Below, piece by piece: positions 8,263 through 15,691 of a stretch of DNA of 64,000 nucleotides. Source of the DNA: Streptomyces sp. RPT161 (GTDB lineage: Bacteria; Actinomycetota; Actinomycetes; Streptomycetales; Streptomycetaceae); assembly GCF_027533845.1 (NCBI RefSeq), contig NZ_JAPZVN010000003.1:310001-374000 (forward strand). Reading direction: 5' to 3'. Numbering within the stretch: position 1 is the first letter of the stretch; the number at the start of each line of letters is the position of its first letter. The notes beneath the pieces are model-generated. The model was not told the DNA's origin. It searched no databases and saw only the letters and a list, made by a program, of their open reading frames with translations. Both the position numbers and the translations under genes were made by a program.

Positions 8263-9960
8263 TCAGTCCTCCGGTAGTTCCACCGGCGCGATCTCCTCGT
8301 AGACGTCGCCCGGGCCGGGGTTGGTCGGGTCCGTCTCGCCACCGAGGTGGTGCATCACGCCCCACACCGCGTTCAGGGCGGTTTGGACCGCGCCCTCGGC
8401 CCAGCCGGCGGTCCAGGAGATGTCGTCGCCCGCCAGGAAGATGCCGCGCTTGTCGGCGGGCAGCCGGTCCTGCATGAAGTGGGTGAACAGGCGGCGCTGG
8501 TAGCGGTAGTGGCCCGGCAGGTTGGCCTTGAACGCCCCCATGAAATAGGGCTCGTTCTCCCAGGAGATGGTCACCGGGTTGCCGATGATGTGCTTGCGGA
8601 TGTCGACCTTCGGGTAGATCTCGCCGAGCGACTTGAGCATGACCTCCATCCGCTCGTTGGCGCTGAGCGGAAGCCACTTGAGGCTGTCGTCGCACCAGGT
8701 GTACGACAGGCAGATCACCGCGGGCCTGTCCGGCCCGTCGTCCAGCAGGTACGTGCCGCGGGTCATCCGGTCGGTGAGCGTCATGCTCATCACGTCCCTG
8801 CCCGTCTCCTCGTCCTTGTCCAGCCAGAAAGGCCGGTCGACGGGGACGAACAGCTTGGACGACTCCATGTAGTGGGTGCGCTCGATCGCCGTCCAGTGGT
8901 CGATCGGGAACAGCTCGTCATCGCAGGCGATCTTCGACAGCAGCATCCAGCTCTGCGCGGTGAAGACAACCGCTTTGTAGGAACGGATGTCGCCGGACGC
9001 GTCGGTGACCGTGATCCGGTTGCCCGCGGTGCGGTGCAGCCTGGTGACGGCCGGGCGCGGCTCGCCGTCGTGCAGCGACTTCAGGGACGTGCCCGGCGCC
9101 CAGTACACCAGCTTGGCGGGCTCGTCCTCCCAGAGCCGCAGCGGCAGTTGCTCGCTGCCCCCGACGATGCCGCGGTGGTCGTCGTCCGCGCCGGTGTAGA
9201 CGACGCGCAGGATCTCCAGGATGGAGTTGGGGAAGTCGGTGTCCCAGCCGCCGGTGCCGAAGCCCACCTGGCCGAAGATCTCACGGTGGCGGAAGGACTT
9301 GAACGCCGGGGAGTCGCAGAGGAACCCGTAGAAGGTCTGGTTGTCCAGCTTCTCCACGAGGTCCGCCCAGAGGGCGCGGATGGCGGGCACGTCGCGCTCG
9401 CGGATCGCCCGCTGCATCTCGGAGAACCGGGCGCCGTCCTCCAGGCAGGCGTTCCAGGCGTCCATCACCTGGTGGTAGACCTCGGGCAGGTCGTCGAGGG
9501 TGCGCGCGTAGTGCGACTCGCCCTTGAGGTCGACGACGGTCGACGGGGTGTCCGGGGCCAGCGGGTTGGGGAACGGCCTGGTCTCCAGGCCGACCATGTC
9601 GATGTAGTGCTGGAAGGCGGTGGAGCACGGCGGGAAACGCATCGCGCCCATCTCGGCCGTCAGGTCGTCGCAGCCGTCGAAGCGCGCGGTGCGCAGCCGC
9701 CCGCCGAGCCGGTCGGCCTCGTAGACGACCGGCTTGAGGCCCATCTTCATCAGCTCGTACGCGGCGACGATGCCGGACAGTCCGCCGCCGACGACGGCCA
9801 CCTCCGTGCCGTGCTCGTGCGCCGGTATCGAGCCGAGGCCCGCCGGGTGCGCCAGGTAGTCGTCGTAGGCGTACGGGAAGTCGGGGCCGAACATGGTGAT
9901 CGGCTTGGCCGCCTCCGGAACCTGCTCATCGTGGACGGCAGTGGGCACCGTGGACGTCAT
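8263..9960 (-). CDS. davB: Flavin amino-acid monooxygenase, DavB-like (lysine 2-monooxygenase family)
   Basis: 565 residues. An FAD-binding Rossmann motif VVGGGLSG lies at about 56-63, followed by EADRLGGRLR (81-90). The head KPITMFGPDFPYAYDD and blocks FGQVGFGTGGWDTDFPNS (229-246) and SMTLTDRMTRGTYLLDDG match, as I remember it, Pseudomonas lysine 2-monooxygenase DavB, which converts L-lysine to 5-aminovaleramide. Asp242 matches a conserved active-site aspartate; the position equivalent to Cys254 of the Pseudomonas enzyme is Ala258. The amidase gene directly upstream supports a monooxygenase giving an amide. Related enzymes use tryptophan, phenylalanine or arginine, so the substrate is not proved. 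AAGGAGAG precedes the ATG. Confidence 0.8.
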   Translation of the reverse strand: MTSTVPTAVHDEQVPEAAKPITMFGPDFPYAYDDYLAHPAGLGSIPAHEHGTEVAVVGGGLSGIVAAYELMKMGLKPVVYEADRLGGRLRTARFDGCDDLTAEMGAMRFPPCSTAFQHYIDMVGLETRPFPNPLAPDTPSTVVDLKGESHYARTLDDLPEVYHQVMDAWNACLEDGARFSEMQRAIRERDVPAIRALWADLVEKLDNQTFYGFLCDSPAFKSFRHREIFGQVGFGTGGWDTDFPNSILEILRVVYTGADDDHRGIVGGSEQLPLRLWEDEPAKLVYWAPGTSLKSLHDGEPRPAVTRLHRTAGNRITVTDASGDIRSYKAVVFTAQSWMLLSKIACDDELFPIDHWTAIERTHYMESSKLFVPVDRPFWLDKDEETGRDVMSMTLTDRMTRGTYLLDDGPDRPAVICLSYTWCDDSLKWLPLSANERMEVMLKSLGEIYPKVDIRKHIIGNPVTISWENEPYFMGAFKANLPGHYRYQRRLFTHFMQDRLPADKRGIFLAGDDISWTAGWAEGAVQTALNAVWGVMHHLGGETDPTNPGPGDVYEEIAPVELPED

Positions 9961-10019
9961 CGGCGTGCTCTCCTTGGCGGGGCGGTACGAGAAGGGCGGT
10001 ACGAGAGGGGAGACCGGAA

Positions 10020-10820
10020 TCAGGCGAGCGGCCCGTACAACTCGGGGCGGCGGTCGCGCAGATACGGGTTCTGGCGGCGCGAGGCGCGCAGGCGCACCGG
10101 GTCGACGTCAGCGAAGACCAGGTCCTCGCCGGTCCCGGCACGGGCGTGCGCCACGCCGTCGGGACCGGCCAGACAGCTGAGCCCGGCGAAGTGGAACTCG
10201 CCCTCGGCGCCCGCACGGTTCGCATAGGCCAGATACAGCTGGCTCTCGAACGCGCGCGCCGGGACGAGGGTCTGGGGTACGACCTCGAAGGGCCGCATCA
10301 GTGCGGTGGGCACCACGATCAGATCGGTACCGGCCAGCGCGTGCGCCCGCACGTTCTCCGGGAACTCGACGTCGTAGCAGATCAGCAGGCCGACGGTGAG
10401 CCCGTCGAGGGTCGCCTGGACGATCAGTTCGTCTCCGGCCGTGAAGTGCCGGGCCTCGAACTCGCCGAACAGGTGCGTCTTGCGGTAGTTGGCCAGCCGG
10501 ACCCCGTCCGGGCCGATGAACTGGGCGGAGTTGAAGACCCGTTCGCCGTCGCGCTCGGGGTATCCGTACACGATCGCGACCCGGTGCTCGGCGGCGATCT
10601 TCGCGACGCGCTGGGCGCCGGGGCCGTCGGCGGGCTCGGCGAGGGTGGCGACGGCGTCCCCGAGGGCGTATCCGGTCAGGTACATCTCGGCGGTCGCCAG
10701 CAGCGCCGCGCCCGCGGCGGCCGCCCGCCGTGCGGCGTCGTCCAGCGCGGCAAGGCTCTCCTCGGTGGTCCGCGGCACACCGCTCGGGCCCTGGTACAAC
10801 GCGATGCGCAGCGGCTTCAT
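10020..10820 (-). CDS. davA: Carbon-nitrogen hydrolase, DavA-like (5-aminovaleramidase)
   Basis: 266 residues, a single nitrilase-fold domain. The catalytic triad is Glu45 (AEMYLTGY), Lys114 (YRKTHLFGEFE) and Cys148 (LICYDVEFPEN). The start MKPLRIALYQG and the segments VAIVYGYPER and NYRKTHLFGE closely resemble DavA, which hydrolyses 5-aminovaleramide to 5-aminovalerate. It is the first gene of a two-gene operon with the DavB-like oxygenase, 59 bases apart, so the two probably act in sequence. Substrate assignment is by family and context only. Confidence 0.82.
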   Translation of the reverse strand: MKPLRIALYQGPSGVPRTTEESLAALDDAARRAAAAGAALLATAEMYLTGYALGDAVATLAEPADGPGAQRVAKIAAEHRVAIVYGYPERDGERVFNSAQFIGPDGVRLANYRKTHLFGEFEARHFTAGDELIVQATLDGLTVGLLICYDVEFPENVRAHALAGTDLIVVPTALMRPFEVVPQTLVPARAFESQLYLAYANRAGAEGEFHFAGLSCLAGPDGVAHARAGTGEDLVFADVDPVRLRASRRQNPYLRDRRPELYGPLA

Positions 10821-11040: not shown

Positions 11041-11943
11041 CTACGCGGCGGCGACCGCGTCCCTGACCACCTGGCGGAGCCAGGCGTGGCCCGGGTCCGC
11101 GTCGTGGCGGGGGTGCCAGGCCATGCCGATGCGGACCGGCGGCAGCTCCAGCGGGACCGGGAAGGTGCGCAGCCCCAGCGCGTCCACCGCGCGGGCCGCC
11201 ACACGCTCCAGGACCAGGCCCACCGCATCGCTCTCCATGATCATGAACAGCGAGGCGGCCAGCGCGGGCGCGGAGCCGACCACCCGGCGGCGCAGCCCGC
11301 GGTCGGCCAGCGCTTCGTCCAGGGGGCCGTAGAACCGGCCGCGCCGGGAGATCAACAGGTGCCCGGCGTCGGTGAACTGACGCAGGGTCAGCTTGTTCTC
11401 CCTGGCCATCGGATGGCCCGGCCGTACCACCGCGACCATGCGGTCCTCGAACAGCGGCTCCACCCGTACCTCCGGCTCGCCGCGGTCGATGACGCCGATC
11501 TCCAGGTCCACCGAGCCGTCCCGCAGCGGCGGCACACCGGAGCGTTCCTCGGGCAGGAACCGCAGCTTGGAGCCAGGCGCCTCGCAGGCCACCCGGCGCA
11601 GCAGTTCGGAGCCGAACACCATCACCAGCGCGTCGAACGCCACAATGGTGAACTGCCGCTGGAAGGTGCTGGGGTCGTCGGGTGCCACCGAGGCGAAGAC
11701 CGCCCGCGCCTCCTCCACCACGCGCCGCACCTCGGCGCGGATCGCCAACGCGCGCGGGGTGGGAACCATCCGCCGCCCGGCCCGCACCAGCACGGGGTCG
11801 CCGAACTGCCGCCGGATCCGGCCCAGCGTACGGCTCATCGCCGGGCCGGACAGTCCGAGCCGCTCGGCGGCCAACGTGACACTCTCTTCCTCCAGTAGCG
11901 CATCAAGCGCGACCAGCAGATTGAGATCGGCCCCGCGGTCCAT
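11041..11943 (-). CDS. LysR family transcriptional regulator
   Basis: 300 residues. The N-terminal winged helix has LNLLVALDALLEEESVTLAA and LGLSGPAMSRTLGRIR (about 8-44), followed by the periplasmic-binding-protein-like co-inducer domain from about residue 90. The ATG at 11941-11943 has GGAGGGGAG directly upstream. It is divergent from an MFS pump gene, the classic LysR arrangement, with inverted repeats in the shared gap, so it probably controls that pump. Whether it also affects the davA-davB operon directly downstream is unknown. Confidence 0.9.
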   Translation of the reverse strand: MDRGADLNLLVALDALLEEESVTLAAERLGLSGPAMSRTLGRIRRQFGDPVLVRAGRRMVPTPRALAIRAEVRRVVEEARAVFASVAPDDPSTFQRQFTIVAFDALVMVFGSELLRRVACEAPGSKLRFLPEERSGVPPLRDGSVDLEIGVIDRGEPEVRVEPLFEDRMVAVVRPGHPMARENKLTLRQFTDAGHLLISRRGRFYGPLDEALADRGLRRRVVGSAPALAASLFMIMESDAVGLVLERVAARAVDALGLRTFPVPLELPPVRIGMAWHPRHDADPGHAWLRQVVRDAVAAA

Positions 11944-11964
11944 TTCTCCCCTCCGAGCTGCTGG

Positions 11965-12012
11965 ATTGCGTCTGGCGCAGCAATGCCTTGCCATCATTGC
12001 ACTTGAAGGCAA
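11965..12012. promoter_or_regulatory. LysR-type operator between divergent regulator and MFS genes
   Basis: ATTGC (11965-11969) and GCAAT (11980-11984) form a perfect inverted repeat with a 10-base spacer, a classical T-N11-A-type site. The GCAAT also pairs with ATTGC at 11996-12000, and that copy with GCAA at 12009-12012 (8-base spacer), giving overlapping half-sites across the promoter region. Confidence 0.55.
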
Positions 12013-12038
12013 CACTGGCGGCCCCTAGCGTCCTGAAC

Positions 12039-13550
12039 ATGTCCACAACGCTTTCCGCCACTGCTCCGGCACCCCCAACCACCAAGCCACGCGCGGTCGT
12101 TCTGGCGATGTGCGCCTGTGTGCTGGTGACCCAGTCCCTGGTCGCGGCGATCAACCTGGCGATACCGAAGCTCTCCGCCAGCGCACTGCATCCCAGCTCC
12201 GCGCAACTGCTGTGGATCGTCGACGCCTACGTCATCGTCTTCGCCGGTCTGCTGATCCCGGCCGGTGCGCTGGGTGACCGCTACGGCCGCAAGGGGGTGC
12301 TGCTCAGCGGCCTGGCGGTGTTCACCGTGGGCGCGGCCGGCTGCGCGCTCGCGCCGAGCGTGCCCGTGCTGCTCGCGGCACGGGCGGTGTGCGGTCTGGG
12401 CGCCGCCCTGGTGCTGCCGGGCACCATGGCGCTGCTGCTGTACGCGGTGCCGGCCGAGCGCCGGGGCGCGGCGGTGGCCAGTTGGAGCAGTGCCATCGCC
12501 GTCGGGGGTGTGCTGGGCAACGCGGGCGGCGCGCTGGTGTTGCAGTACCTGCCCTGGCAGGGCCTGTTCTGGATGTACGTACCGCTGGGCGCGGCGCTGC
12601 TGGCCTTCTCCGCGCACAGCGCGCCCCGGGTGCCCCGGCACGCCGCGGCCCTGGACCTGCCCGGCTCGGGGCTGCTGATCCTCGGCTGTGTGGCGCTGCT
12701 CTACGGCATCATCGAGGGGCCCGAGCTGGGTTGGGGTTCGACCGCCACGCTGGGCGCCTTCGCCCTGTCGGCGGTGCTGCTGGCGGTGTTCGTCCGGCAC
12801 GAGCTGCGGGTGGCCGCTCCGCTGCTGGACCCACGGCTGTTCCGGCTGCCGAAGGTCCGCGCGGGGGCGCTGGGGGTGGCTGCGGCGTTCTTCGGGATGT
12901 TCGCGCTGTTCTACGTGAACGCCCAGTTCCTCCAGTACGTCAAGGGGTTCAGCGCGCTACGGGCCGGATTCGCGGTGCTGCCGCTGGCGTTCGGGATGAT
13001 GCTGGTGACACAGCGCAGCATGCGGTGGGCGGCGCGGATCGGGGCCGCCGCCACGGTGGCCACGGGGCTGGTGTCCATCGCGGGCGGTCTGCTGCTGTTG
13101 TCCACCGCGAACTCCGGCACGCCGTACCCGCTGTACGCCTGCTACATGCTGGTGCTGGCGTTCGGCGCGGGCATGGCGATGCCCTCGCTGTCGCACGCCA
13201 TCGTCACCTCGCTGCCGCAGCACCGGGCCGGGGTCGGCTCGGCGCTGAACACCGCGGCCCGTGAGCTGGGCACCGCGCTGGGGGTGGCGGCGGTGGGCAC
13301 CGCCCTGTCCACCGGGTTCGCCTCCCGGCTGCCCGCCCCGCTCGCCGGTCACGCGGACTCGACGGCGGCCACCTTCGCGGCGGCCACCCGGCTGGGGGTC
13401 CGGGCCCACACCGAGGCGGTGACCGCGTTCACCCACGCGACGGCGGACGGGTACCGGGTCGTGGCGGCACTGCTGCTGGTGCTGACCGTCGCCGTCGCCG
13501 CCGGGCTGCGGCGCGGGGGCACGGCTCAGGTGGGCGAGCCCGCGCTGTAG
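12039..13550 (+). CDS. MFS transporter, DHA2-type drug/proton antiporter
   Basis: About 503 residues with roughly 14 membrane segments. Motif A of the major facilitator superfamily is seen as GALGDRYGRKG (near residue 75), and the antiporter motif C region lies near GGVLGNAGGALV. The family exports drugs or metabolites. ATG at 12039 is chosen because the first helix begins soon after; no ribosome binding site is visible, so the start at 11988 cannot be excluded, although that would run into the operator. Divergent from the LysR gene. Its last 25 bases overlap the end of the lrp gene on the other strand. Confidence 0.85.
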   Translation: MSTTLSATAPAPPTTKPRAVVLAMCACVLVTQSLVAAINLAIPKLSASALHPSSAQLLWIVDAYVIVFAGLLIPAGALGDRYGRKGVLLSGLAVFTVGAAGCALAPSVPVLLAARAVCGLGAALVLPGTMALLLYAVPAERRGAAVASWSSAIAVGGVLGNAGGALVLQYLPWQGLFWMYVPLGAALLAFSAHSAPRVPRHAAALDLPGSGLLILGCVALLYGIIEGPELGWGSTATLGAFALSAVLLAVFVRHELRVAAPLLDPRLFRLPKVRAGALGVAAAFFGMFALFYVNAQFLQYVKGFSALRAGFAVLPLAFGMMLVTQRSMRWAARIGAAATVATGLVSIAGGLLLLSTANSGTPYPLYACYMLVLAFGAGMAMPSLSHAIVTSLPQHRAGVGSALNTAARELGTALGVAAVGTALSTGFASRLPAPLAGHADSTAATFAAATRLGVRAHTEAVTAFTHATADGYRVVAALLLVLTVAVAAGLRRGGTAQVGEPAL

Positions 13551-13981
13551 CGGCGCAGCAGTGGCGAGAGCACCAGGACGGACTTGGTGCGCTCCACGAA
13601 GGGTTCGCCCGCGATGCGCTCCAGGACGCGCTCGAAGTGGCGGACGTCGGAGGCGTAGATCTGCACCAGGGCGTCCGCCTCGCCGGTGACGGTGGAGGCC
13701 GAGGCCACCTCCGGGTAGCGGGTGAGGCCGCGCCGGATGTCCTCGGGAGAGGTGTTGTGGCGGCAGTAGATCTCGACGAACGCCTCGGTCTCCCAGCCGA
13801 GTGCGGCCGGGTCGACCCGTACCGTGAAGCCGGTGATGGCGCCCGCCGCCAGCAGCCGGTCGACCCGGCGCTTGACGGCGGGCGCGGACAGGCCGACTTC
13901 GGCGCCGATGTCGGCGTAGGAGCGGCGGGCGTCCTCGGCGAGGGCGTGCACGATGCGTTCGTCGAGATCGTTCAGTCGCAA
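13526..13981 (-). CDS. Lrp/AsnC family transcriptional regulator
   Basis: 151 residues: N-terminal helix-turn-helix (LNDLDERIVHALAEDARRS, VGLSAPAVKRRVDRL, residues 3-45) and a C-terminal RAM ligand domain (EAFVEIYCRHNTS ... VTGEADALVQIYA). These proteins bind amino acids and form octamers that bind phased DNA sites. The start codon appears to be TTG; the ribosome binding site is weak (GAGAAG within the end of the preceding gene). The gene follows the amino-acid permease by 10 bases, so the two form an operon. It is the best candidate for the factor that binds the CGTTGCG repeats. Confidence 0.9.
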   Translation of the reverse strand: MRLNDLDERIVHALAEDARRSYADIGAEVGLSAPAVKRRVDRLLAAGAITGFTVRVDPAALGWETEAFVEIYCRHNTSPEDIRRGLTRYPEVASASTVTGEADALVQIYASDVRHFERVLERIAGEPFVERTKSVLVLSPLLRRYSAGSPT

Positions 13982-13991
13982 GGGGGGTGGT

Positions 13992-15494
13992 TCACTTCTC
14001 TAGTCGGGTGGGCACTTCTCGGGCCAGCTGCGAGCGGCGCATGCCGTACGCGAAGTACAGCACGATTCCGATGATCATCCAGCCACCGAAGTACTCCCAG
14101 GTAATCGTTTCGAAGCTACCCATCATCCACAGGCACAGCAGGAAACCGATCGCCGGGGTGACCGGCGAGAAGGCCACCTTGAAGCTGCGCGGCATGTCCG
14201 GCCGCGTCCTGCGCAGCACGATGACGGCCGCGTTGACCAGGGCGAAGGCGAAGAGGGTGCCGATGCTGGTGGCGTCGGCGAGCGCCCCGAGCGGGACCAC
14301 GGCGGCCAGCACACCGCAGAACAGCGAGACGATCACGGTGTTGGCCACCGGGATGCCGGACTTCGGGCTGACCCTGGCGAACAGCTTGGGCACCAGGCCG
14401 TCCCGGGACATGGAGAACAGGATCCGGGTCTGGCCGTACATCACGGTCAGCACCACGCTGGCGATGGCGATGACGGCGCCCGCGGCCAGCAGTACGGACC
14501 AGAAGTCCTGGCCGGTGACGTCCTTCATGATCTGGGCCAGCGCGGCGTCGGCGTTTCCGAACTGCTTCCACGGCATCGCGCCCACGGCCACCAGTGCGAC
14601 CAGGCAGTACAGCGCGGTGACGATCAGCAGCGAGAGCATGATCGCCCGCGGCAGGTCGCGCTTGGGGTTCTTGGCCTCCTCGCCCGCGGTCGAGGCGGCG
14701 TCGAAGCCGATGTAGGAGAAGAACAGCGAGGCACCCGCCGCGCTGACGCCGCCGAGGCCGAGCGGCATGAACGGCTTGTAGTTCCCGGCCCTGATGCCGG
14801 TGAAGGCGACCGCGCAGAAGAGGATCAGCGAGGCGATCTTCACCATGACCATGATGGTGTTGGCCCGCGCGCTCTCCTTGGCGCCGCCCAGCAGGAAGCC
14901 CATGGCCAGCAGTACCACGAGCAGCGCGGGGATGTTCAGATAGCCGCCCTGGCCCGGAGGGTTGGCCATCCAGCCGGGGATGGTGAGTCCGATGGTGCCG
15001 CTGAGCAGTTCGTTGAGGTACTGCCCCCAGCCCACCGCGACCGCGGCGACCGACACGCCGTATTCGAGGATCAGACACCAGCCGCAGATCCAGGCGATCA
15101 GCTCGCCCATCGTGGCGTAGGCGTAGGAGTAGGAGGAGCCGGAGACCGGGATGGTGCCGGCCAGCTCGGCGTAGGACAGGGCGGAGAAAAGCGCGGTCAG
15201 ACCGGCGATGACGAAGGAGACCACCACGGCCGGACCGGCCTTGGGCACCGCCTCGCCGAGCACCACGAAGATGCCGGTGCCCAGGGTGGCGCCGATGCTG
15301 ATCATGGTGAGCTGCCACATGCTCAGCGAGCGCTTGAGCTGACCGCCCTCACCCTGGCCGCCCTCGGCGACCAGGCGTTCCACCGGCTTGCGGCGCATCA
15401 CGGCGGCACCGAGGCCGGACGGCCGTCCGGCCGGAGGCGGTACGGCGTCGGTCGTCCGGGCAGGGGCTGTCGGCGTCGTGCCGGGTTCCACCAC
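13992..15494 (-). CDS. Amino-acid permease (APC superfamily, cationic amino-acid transporter type)
   Basis: About 500 residues with 12 or more membrane segments. The first helix has SIGATLGTGIFVVLGEAVPKAGPA and the sixth FSYIGFDAASTAGEEAKNPKRDLPRAI, both signatures of the cationic-amino-acid-transporter branch, which carries lysine, arginine and ornithine. The GTG at 15492-15494 is chosen because GGAG lies five bases upstream; the open frame extends further to 15620. It forms an operon with the downstream lrp gene and shares promoter repeats with davA-davB, which fits a role in feeding amino acid into that pathway. Confidence 0.85.
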   Translation of the reverse strand: MVEPGTTPTAPARTTDAVPPPAGRPSGLGAAVMRRKPVERLVAEGGQGEGGQLKRSLSMWQLTMISIGATLGTGIFVVLGEAVPKAGPAVVVSFVIAGLTALFSALSYAELAGTIPVSGSSYSYAYATMGELIAWICGWCLILEYGVSVAAVAVGWGQYLNELLSGTIGLTIPGWMANPPGQGGYLNIPALLVVLLAMGFLLGGAKESARANTIMVMVKIASLILFCAVAFTGIRAGNYKPFMPLGLGGVSAAGASLFFSYIGFDAASTAGEEAKNPKRDLPRAIMLSLLIVTALYCLVALVAVGAMPWKQFGNADAALAQIMKDVTGQDFWSVLLAAGAVIAIASVVLTVMYGQTRILFSMSRDGLVPKLFARVSPKSGIPVANTVIVSLFCGVLAAVVPLGALADATSIGTLFAFALVNAAVIVLRRTRPDMPRSFKVAFSPVTPAIGFLLCLWMMGSFETITWEYFGGWMIIGIVLYFAYGMRRSQLAREVPTRLEK

Positions 15495-15691
15495 GGGGGC
15501 TCCATCATCGTCAGCGGCTCTGAGCGGCGGCGACCCGCACGGCCGACCAGGCGAAGGGCACGCCGATGAAAGGCATGCCCTTGAGGGGGACCGCCGAGCC
15601 GGGGGTCCCCGCTGCTCCACGTATGGCCCACGACTCTAAGAGGGCGGGCGCTCCGTCCATAATGCGTGACCATTGCACATATACAAAAAAA

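Follow-up and report, generated by a model that had tools for sequence, protein, structure and literature searches.

We analysed an oxidase-amidase gene pair in a stretch of 64,000 nucleotides from the genome of Streptomyces sp. RPT161 (contig NZ_JAPZVN010000003.1, positions 310,001 to 374,000; here C63:310001-374000 of genome G000, "the window") and propose that the genes of this operon probably specify an L-arginine 2-monooxygenase together with a 4-guanidinobutyramide amidase. In this scheme, the oxidase would oxidise the alpha-amino group of arginine and decarboxylate it to give 4-guanidinobutyramide, which the amidase would convert to 4-guanidinobutyrate and ammonia. A ureohydrolase encoded on another contig (G000:C64) would then split 4-guanidinobutyrate into urea and 4-aminobutyrate (GABA), which a GabT-like aminotransferase (G000:C69) would pass on towards succinate, while a neighbouring permease may import the amino acid and a neighbouring Lrp regulator may sense it. 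We favour arginine because the window oxidase groups with oxidases that are tied by context to guanidino chemistry. An earlier reading of the same DNA, made from its letters and translations alone (the sequence-only reading), had named lysine as the headline substrate; this substrate is not supported, as the oxidase lies outside the lysine-enzyme clade, differs from the lysine enzyme at residues 254, 258 and 515, and falls with the guanidino-context group.

A conserved oxidase-amidase operon

The pair is real and conserved, and its fold is ordinary. Both open reading frames (ORFs) are intact and lie on one strand, with the amidase as the first gene in transcription and a gap of 59 nucleotides between its stop (10020) and the ATG of the oxidase (9960). 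The oxidase matches PF01593 (E=2.7e-51) and NAD_binding_8 (E=4.6e-10), which gives a flavin amine oxidoreductase fold with a dinucleotide-binding N-terminus, and the amidase matches PF00795 (E=2.8e-48). The sequence-only reading thus had the class right when it described a DavB-like, flavin adenine dinucleotide (FAD)-dependent oxidase/monooxygenase in an operon with a nitrilase-type amidase. The top solved relative of the oxidase is the L-amino acid oxidase/monooxygenase (L-AAO/MOG) of Pseudomonas sp. AIU 813, an enzyme of the DavB type (3we0, 5yb6-8; full-length match, E=4.2e-239, 798 bits, 60% identity), and the runner-up is a tryptophan 2-monooxygenase (4iv9; E=2.4e-61, 211 bits). For the amidase, the top solved matches are 5jqn, "Aliphatic amidase" (E ~4e-39), and 3hkx, "Amidase" (E ~5e-39), and alignment places Glu45, Lys114, Glu120 and Cys148 at positions that we take to be the catalytic residues of the nitrilase superfamily.

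Streptomycetes carry the oxidase-amidase pair as a core operon. We scanned genome contigs and obtained at least 558 confirmed relatives of the oxidase, of which the best 80 (the "80 streptomycete loci") are 85-90% identical, have Streptomyces, Actinacidiphila or Wenjunlia in every record title, and include one metagenome-assembled genome; 66 of these loci are at least 17.3 kb long. In 79 of the 80, the oxidase is preceded on its own strand by the amidase, which argues that the pairing is not due to chance; the last locus (L118) is cut by a contig end, and its oxidase starts at position 116 of the contig fragment. An oxidase match at E<=1e-120 was present in 380 of 392 sampled Streptomyces genomes (group g2, assigned to Streptomyces from matches in G1556 and G1587 that share their contig positions with those in S. 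scabiei and S. malaysiense). This count is a maximum for strict orthologues, since the threshold also admits a second oxidase type, with best E-values of 1e-193 to 1e-280 in genomes G1376, G1412, G1418, G1430 and G1503. In a phylum-wide sample, 16 of 396 genomes had a match at E<=1e-60.

Active site and phylogeny of the oxidase

According to the available sections of the paper on L-AAO/MOG, Asp238 holds the cationic end of the substrate, Arg102 and Tyr416 serve its alpha group, Trp235, Trp418 and Ala515 form the side-chain pocket together with a Phe473/Trp516 cage, and Cys254 is a key residue for oxidase versus monooxygenase activity (PMC5832979). Aligned with 3we0, the window oxidase shares with this enzyme not only the FAD fold and its identity over the whole length but also nine residues (Arg102, Trp235, Asp238, Asp393, Tyr416, Trp418, Lys424, Phe473 and Trp516). 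Because the residues for a basic substrate are kept, Asp238 included, a basic substrate is to be expected. The two enzymes differ in that Cys254, Gln258 and Ala515 are replaced by Ala, His and Gly in the window oxidase, and the second-site residues Glu140, Glu344 and Gln349 by Lys, Asp and Ile. The wider pocket that Gly515 would leave may suit a guanidino group, and Ala254 is no argument against amide formation, because the oxidases of arginine-primed polyketide loci (see below) have Ala254 too.

The window oxidase also stands in a separate clade from L-AAO/MOG. All trees were rooted at the midpoint only. In a careful tree of 46 rows, 3we0 forms a clade with L205, L209, Rhodobacterales oxidases, L166 and L167 (12 rows, 99/100) that excludes the window, and a quick tree of 95 rows, built without three distant rows, likewise leaves the window outside the lysine-side clade with 3we0 (17 rows; support of 100 in the Shimodaira-Hasegawa-like approximate likelihood ratio test, SH-aLRT). 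In the 95-row tree the window belongs to a 51-row group (SH-aLRT 100) that also holds 13 polyketide- or ligase-type and 10 ureohydrolase-linked oxidases; in the 46-row tree, support for joining the window side to the polyketide type is weak (92/42).

Twelve alignment columns separate oxidases of the Ala515 type (16 sequences with 3we0) from those of the Gly515 type (78), and the window has the Gly-type letter at 12 of 12, a result that does no more than describe the clades, because residue 515 was itself the grouping criterion and the window is among the sequences grouped. One sequence was left out of this grouping: L167 (9812-11464) sits on the lysine side, as one ureohydrolase-linked row inside the lysine clade of the 95-row tree, and agrees with the lysine type at 9 of the 12 columns and with the Gly type only at 515, with a ureohydrolase-like match 1.4 kb off on the other strand. 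It is a possible convergent specificity switch, to which, as a single case on a long branch, we give little weight.

Neighbouring genes and residue 515 across relatives

To relate residue 515 to gene context, we used 88 loci with flanks (up to ~11 kb a side), the 80 streptomycete loci not among them, and called neighbours by tblastn at E<=1e-15. The 73 loci with Gly515 oxidases, from 28 genera, have a ureohydrolase in 28 cases (12 genera), an acyl-CoA ligase in 12, either of the two in 37, neither in 36, and GabT in 6. The 15 loci with Ala515 oxidases, from 10 genera, have GabT in 3 cases and neither a ureohydrolase nor a ligase in any. The contrast (37 of 73 versus 0 of 15 for either neighbour) corresponds to a Fisher p-value of 1e-4, and that for the ureohydrolase taken alone to one of 0.002; both values ignore relatedness. 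Three of the 28 ureohydrolase-linked loci (L200, L042 and L043) are of the polyketide type, and without these three, g1 and g2 would drop out of the 12 genera; the 73 loci include the distant relatives L214, L215 and L216 (36-43% identity), one of which has the ligase. Two genomes, G1107 (L260, L267) and G1151 (L257, L261), combine an Ala515 oxidase with a Gly515 one, as would be expected if the two types differ in substrate. These genomes are natural pairs for a comparison of lysine and arginine specificity.

Several relatives are particularly informative. The L254 operon encodes, on one strand and with overlaps of a few bases, an XRE-type ORF, a ureohydrolase, a thiamine pyrophosphate (TPP)-dependent enzyme, an amidase and an oxidase that is 77% identical to that of the window. 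On a Tsukamurella plasmid (L155), the order is ureohydrolase (annotated as agmatinase), permease, amidase and oxidase (68% identical), and the window permease is 61-62% identical to the permease of this operon. A guanidinobutyrase-like gene occurs in the loci of L254, L155, L213, L268, L258 and L260, and L226 and L164 hold a distant amidase (37-39%) and an oxidase followed by an SSS transporter, a ureohydrolase and a TPP enzyme. The Ala515 locus L205, with oxidase, amidase, GabT and GabD and no ureohydrolase, has the make-up expected of a lysine route. The operons of L155, L213, L268 and L254 resemble that of the window in their oxidases (68-77% identical, with Ala254, His258 and Gly515) and amidases (51-57%), and the first three also in a homologous permease; they differ from it in that their ureohydrolase lies in the same locus.

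In the window genome, a guanidinobutyrase-like ureohydrolase is encoded on another contig, G000:C64 (L045:9629-10612). The ureohydrolase and TPP enzyme of L254 are 77% and 72% identical to their counterparts there, so the window genome holds the components of that operon, divided between two sites. For both ureohydrolases tested, those of L155 and G000:C64, the top solved match is the guanidinobutyrase 3nio, although for L155 a 3-guanidinopropionase is nearly level with it (270.7 vs 267.8 bits). The region L045:8019-12155 forms a module of a TPP-dependent enzyme, the guanidinobutyrase-like ureohydrolase and an SSS-type transporter. Its TPP enzyme could process 2-oxoarginine, an expected by-product of a bifunctional oxidase/monooxygenase. 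Its assignment as a 2-oxoarginine decarboxylase is no more than a tentative idea: the top NCBIfam model is a hypothetical-protein model, and the "5-guanidino-2-oxopentanoate decarboxylase" model comes second with 320.7 bits, below its cut-off of 500. The amidase sequence was likewise dropped as a substrate marker, as the window amidase is 55% identical to that of the Ala515-type L205 and 56% to that of the ligase-linked L207.

Evidence against arginine and alternative substrates

A number of observations weigh against an arginine route. The nearest outside families, six f89 and ten window-type f113 loci, have a ureohydrolase or ligase in 0 of 16 cases, and the Gly515 loci L202 and L257 have GabT and neither of these neighbours. 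The Ala515 types form one clade, and the association of residue 515 with context is therefore largely a single evolutionary contrast. In the midpoint-rooted 95-row tree, a 27-row group (99) that includes 14 ureohydrolase-linked oxidases attaches to the lysine side, so that 14 of 25 such oxidases stand on the side of the lysine enzyme rather than on that of the window. Since L-AAO/MOG, with Ala515, also takes arginine and ornithine, the argument from residue 515 is one of preference at most, and the window enzyme itself may be of mixed specificity. The ureohydrolases scanned (3 of 3) pass the NCBIfam agmatinase cut-off, so agmatine may be their substrate. Matches to a ureohydrolase, to GabT and to GabD (E. 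coli GabT and GabD as queries) were found in 0 of the 80 streptomycete loci.

Azalomycin production in S. lividans is a further point of this kind. S. tendae and S. violaceorubidus, which are close to S. lividans, carry the operon. In the available part of the azalomycin study, S. lividans is described as having no arginine monooxygenase and as making azalomycin only when fed 4-guanidinobutyramide (PMC5082578). If S. lividans carries the operon, as nearly all sampled Streptomyces do, then the amide was not supplied by it there, which would mean that under those conditions the enzyme was silent or repressed, or lacked specificity for arginine.

This feeding result is in line with the lysine route, in which the oxidase would turn lysine into 5-aminovaleramide and the amidase would turn this into 5-aminovalerate. 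So are the identity of 60% to L-AAO/MOG, a lysine 2-monooxygenase/oxidase, the retained residues for a cationic substrate, and the likeness of the amidase (55%) to that of L205, where the oxidase is of the Ala515 type and GabT and GabD adjoin. We nevertheless consider lysine quite unlikely, given that the window oxidase falls outside the 3we0 clade in both trees, that Cys254, Gln258 and Ala515 are all replaced, that the 80 streptomycete loci have no GabT or GabD match, and that Ala515 and Gly515 oxidases occur together in G1107 and G1151. The sequence-only reading had stated that the window has no davT/davD-like gene; for GabT/DavT this stands, as 0 of the 13 E. coli GabT matches in the genome lie inside the window, while a DavD-like gene was not searched for across the whole window.

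The lack of a ureohydrolase in the streptomycete loci would fit a broad basic-amino-acid enzyme that acts on arginine, ornithine, lysine and perhaps homoarginine and canavanine, or an ornithine-preferring one that forms GABA via 4-aminobutyramide, in either case as a nitrogen scavenger. L-AAO/MOG provides a precedent: in the available sections of its description it takes all three of lysine, ornithine and arginine, with monooxygenase kcat/Km values of 74 for lysine (pH 7), 200 for ornithine and 24 for arginine (both pH 9), ornithine thus being best (PMC5832979). The conserved Lrp regulator and amino acid permease name no substrate. On the other hand, G1107 and G1151 each have both oxidase types, and ureohydrolase or ligase neighbours are found only with the Gly515 type, which argues for specialisation and for a guanidino substrate, and we regard a broad or ornithine-preferring enzyme as unlikely.

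An aromatic substrate, with tryptophan converted to indole-3-acetamide and on to indole-3-acetate, or phenylalanine in its place, is suggested by the second rank of 4iv9 among the solved relatives and by residue 515. The tryptophan 2-monooxygenase TMO and the phenylalanine enzyme PAO are described, again in the available sections, as having wider pockets with Gly at 515, Phe at 235, and Val (TMO) or Leu (PAO) at 238 (PMC5832979). The window oxidase has kept Trp235 and Asp238, its score to 3we0 is far above that to 4iv9 (798 vs 211 bits), and it did not group with the tryptophan and phenylalanine enzymes, a placement that the sequence-only reading had named as speaking against lysine. Tryptophan and phenylalanine are hence highly improbable, and of the alternative substrates raised in that reading tryptophan falls away, whereas arginine fits best, by the grouping with guanidino-context oxidases.

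A second oxidase and arginine-primed polyketides

The window genome encodes a second DavB-like oxidase that is 62% identical to that of the window; a second oxidase is also present in the two further genomes of its genus (G001 and G002). A dTDP-sugar epimerase gene lies near it in G002, and an arginase-family gene is found at a distance of ~7 kb in both G001 and G002. In G000, a gene of this family stands at the beginning of a different contig. Ketosynthase and acyltransferase motifs, which we take to be those of a type I polyketide synthase, occur in large ORFs ~9 kb off in G002 and 21 kb off in G001. These loci look like amino-marginolactone (desertomycin-type) clusters and resemble those of arginine-primed polyketides. 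S. hygroscopicus NBRC 13472 has the second oxidase too, and six other named genomes that we checked have one oxidase each (E<=1e-60).

According to the accessible parts of two studies, azalomycin priming starts from arginine, which is converted to 4-guanidinobutyramide, and needs an arginine monooxygenase, a 4-guanidinobutyramide hydrolase and a CoA ligase, with a hydrolase gene reported in the azalomycin cluster itself (PMC5082578), and the desertomycin pathway adds an amidinohydrolase (PMC4737276). By its context, then, the second oxidase is a putative arginine monooxygenase. The enzymes that we assign to this arginoketide type, by context only, are L040, L042, L043, L139, L200, L207 and L210. 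They are like the window oxidase in Ala254, Gly515 and their side of the tree, and L040, L042 and L043 are 62-63% identical to it. At position 516 all seven carry Phe instead of the Trp of the window, and the window pair, unlike them, does not lie in a biosynthetic cluster.

The distribution of the amidase may link the two systems. At polyketide-type oxidase loci in genomes that also hold a window-type oxidase, the fetched flanks contained an amidase match in 0 of 8 cases (L040, L042, L043, L200, L262, L264, L266 and L269), and in genomes where no window-type oxidase was found, in 4 of 5 (L207, L210, L214 and L256, not L243). Genome-wide, among ten genomes searched, G000, G001, G002 and G660 each have the window-type amidase and two distant ones (34-38%, none above 38%), and G006 has two others besides the window-type amidase (36% and 40%). 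These counts suggest that in such strains the window amidase may have the second task of providing the polyketide starter with 4-guanidinobutyrate; alternatively, the polyketide cluster itself may encode a hydrolase of a different fold.

Possible relation to the streptomycete arginine pathway

The conversion predicted here, from arginine to 4-aminobutyrate, is that of a route described by van Thoai and co-workers in the same genus, in S. griseus. That route is reportedly the oxygenase route, EC 1.13.12.1. In the available part of one source, it is dated to 1966, was first described from its products, and is filed as an oxidase/dehydrogenase route via 2-ketoarginine whose first enzyme was not characterised (PMC2242806). 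We infer a link between the S. griseus route and the window operon. Our literature search, which had most subscription papers outside its reach, found no gene assignment of an arginine monooxygenase in streptomycete catabolism, no paper on this operon under presumed S. coelicolor locus tags and no paper treating arginine and lysine 2-monooxygenase together.

Combining these lines, we tentatively suggest that the core streptomycete operon could encode the catabolic route through arginine 2-monooxygenase whose products have been known since the 1960s and which has no gene link in the literature searched, that a single pocket change, Ala515Gly, could mark the switch between lysine and arginine, and that the amidase could double as the missing 4-guanidinobutyramide hydrolase in arginine-primed polyketide strains. 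This combination as a whole is possible rather than probable; were it true, core nitrogen metabolism would be tied to the supply of an antibiotic starter unit. An arginine route by itself would assign genes to a streptomycete pathway described from products decades ago, and Ala or Gly at 515 would be a simple rule for separating lysine from arginine enzymes. It would also be a warning not to apply the DavB/lysine label throughout the genus, and it bears on the source of the starter unit in arginine-primed polyketide producers.

Genomic surroundings of the pair

Upstream of the pair, the minus strand carries the genes for the LysR and Lrp regulators and the amino acid permease, followed by guaB1, which has a match in 56 of the 80 streptomycete loci; Table 1 gives the counts for the other neighbours.

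Table 1. Coordinates of the gene pair, its neighbours and the second oxidase loci (positions 1 to 64,000 of the window unless a contig is named).
Feature	Position	Strand	Remark
Oxidase, 565 aa, FAD-dependent basic L-amino-acid oxidase/2-monooxygenase, DavB (L-amino acid oxidase/monooxygenase) family	8263..9960	-	predicted L-arginine 2-monooxygenase
Amidase, 266 aa, nitrilase-fold (carbon-nitrogen hydrolase)	10020..10820	-	predicted 4-guanidinobutyramide amidase
LysR-type regulator, between the Lrp gene and the amidase	11041..12015	-	match in only 4 of 80 relative loci
Transporter-like ORF (judged by eye), divergent, between the LysR and Lrp genes	11988-13550	+	match in 3 of 80 relatives
Lrp/AsnC-type regulator	13526..13981	-	match in 58 of 80 relative loci
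APC-family amino acid permease, start codon uncertain	13992..15620	-	candidate substrate importer; match in 48 of 80 relative loci
Second DavB-like oxidase loci	G000:C76 (L040), G001:C44 (L043, L275), G002:C9 (L042, L278)		acyl-CoA ligase and thioesterase adjoining

Between the Lrp gene and the amidase, three of the four other loci that we looked at (L071, L125 and L111) hold a different transporter-like ORF.

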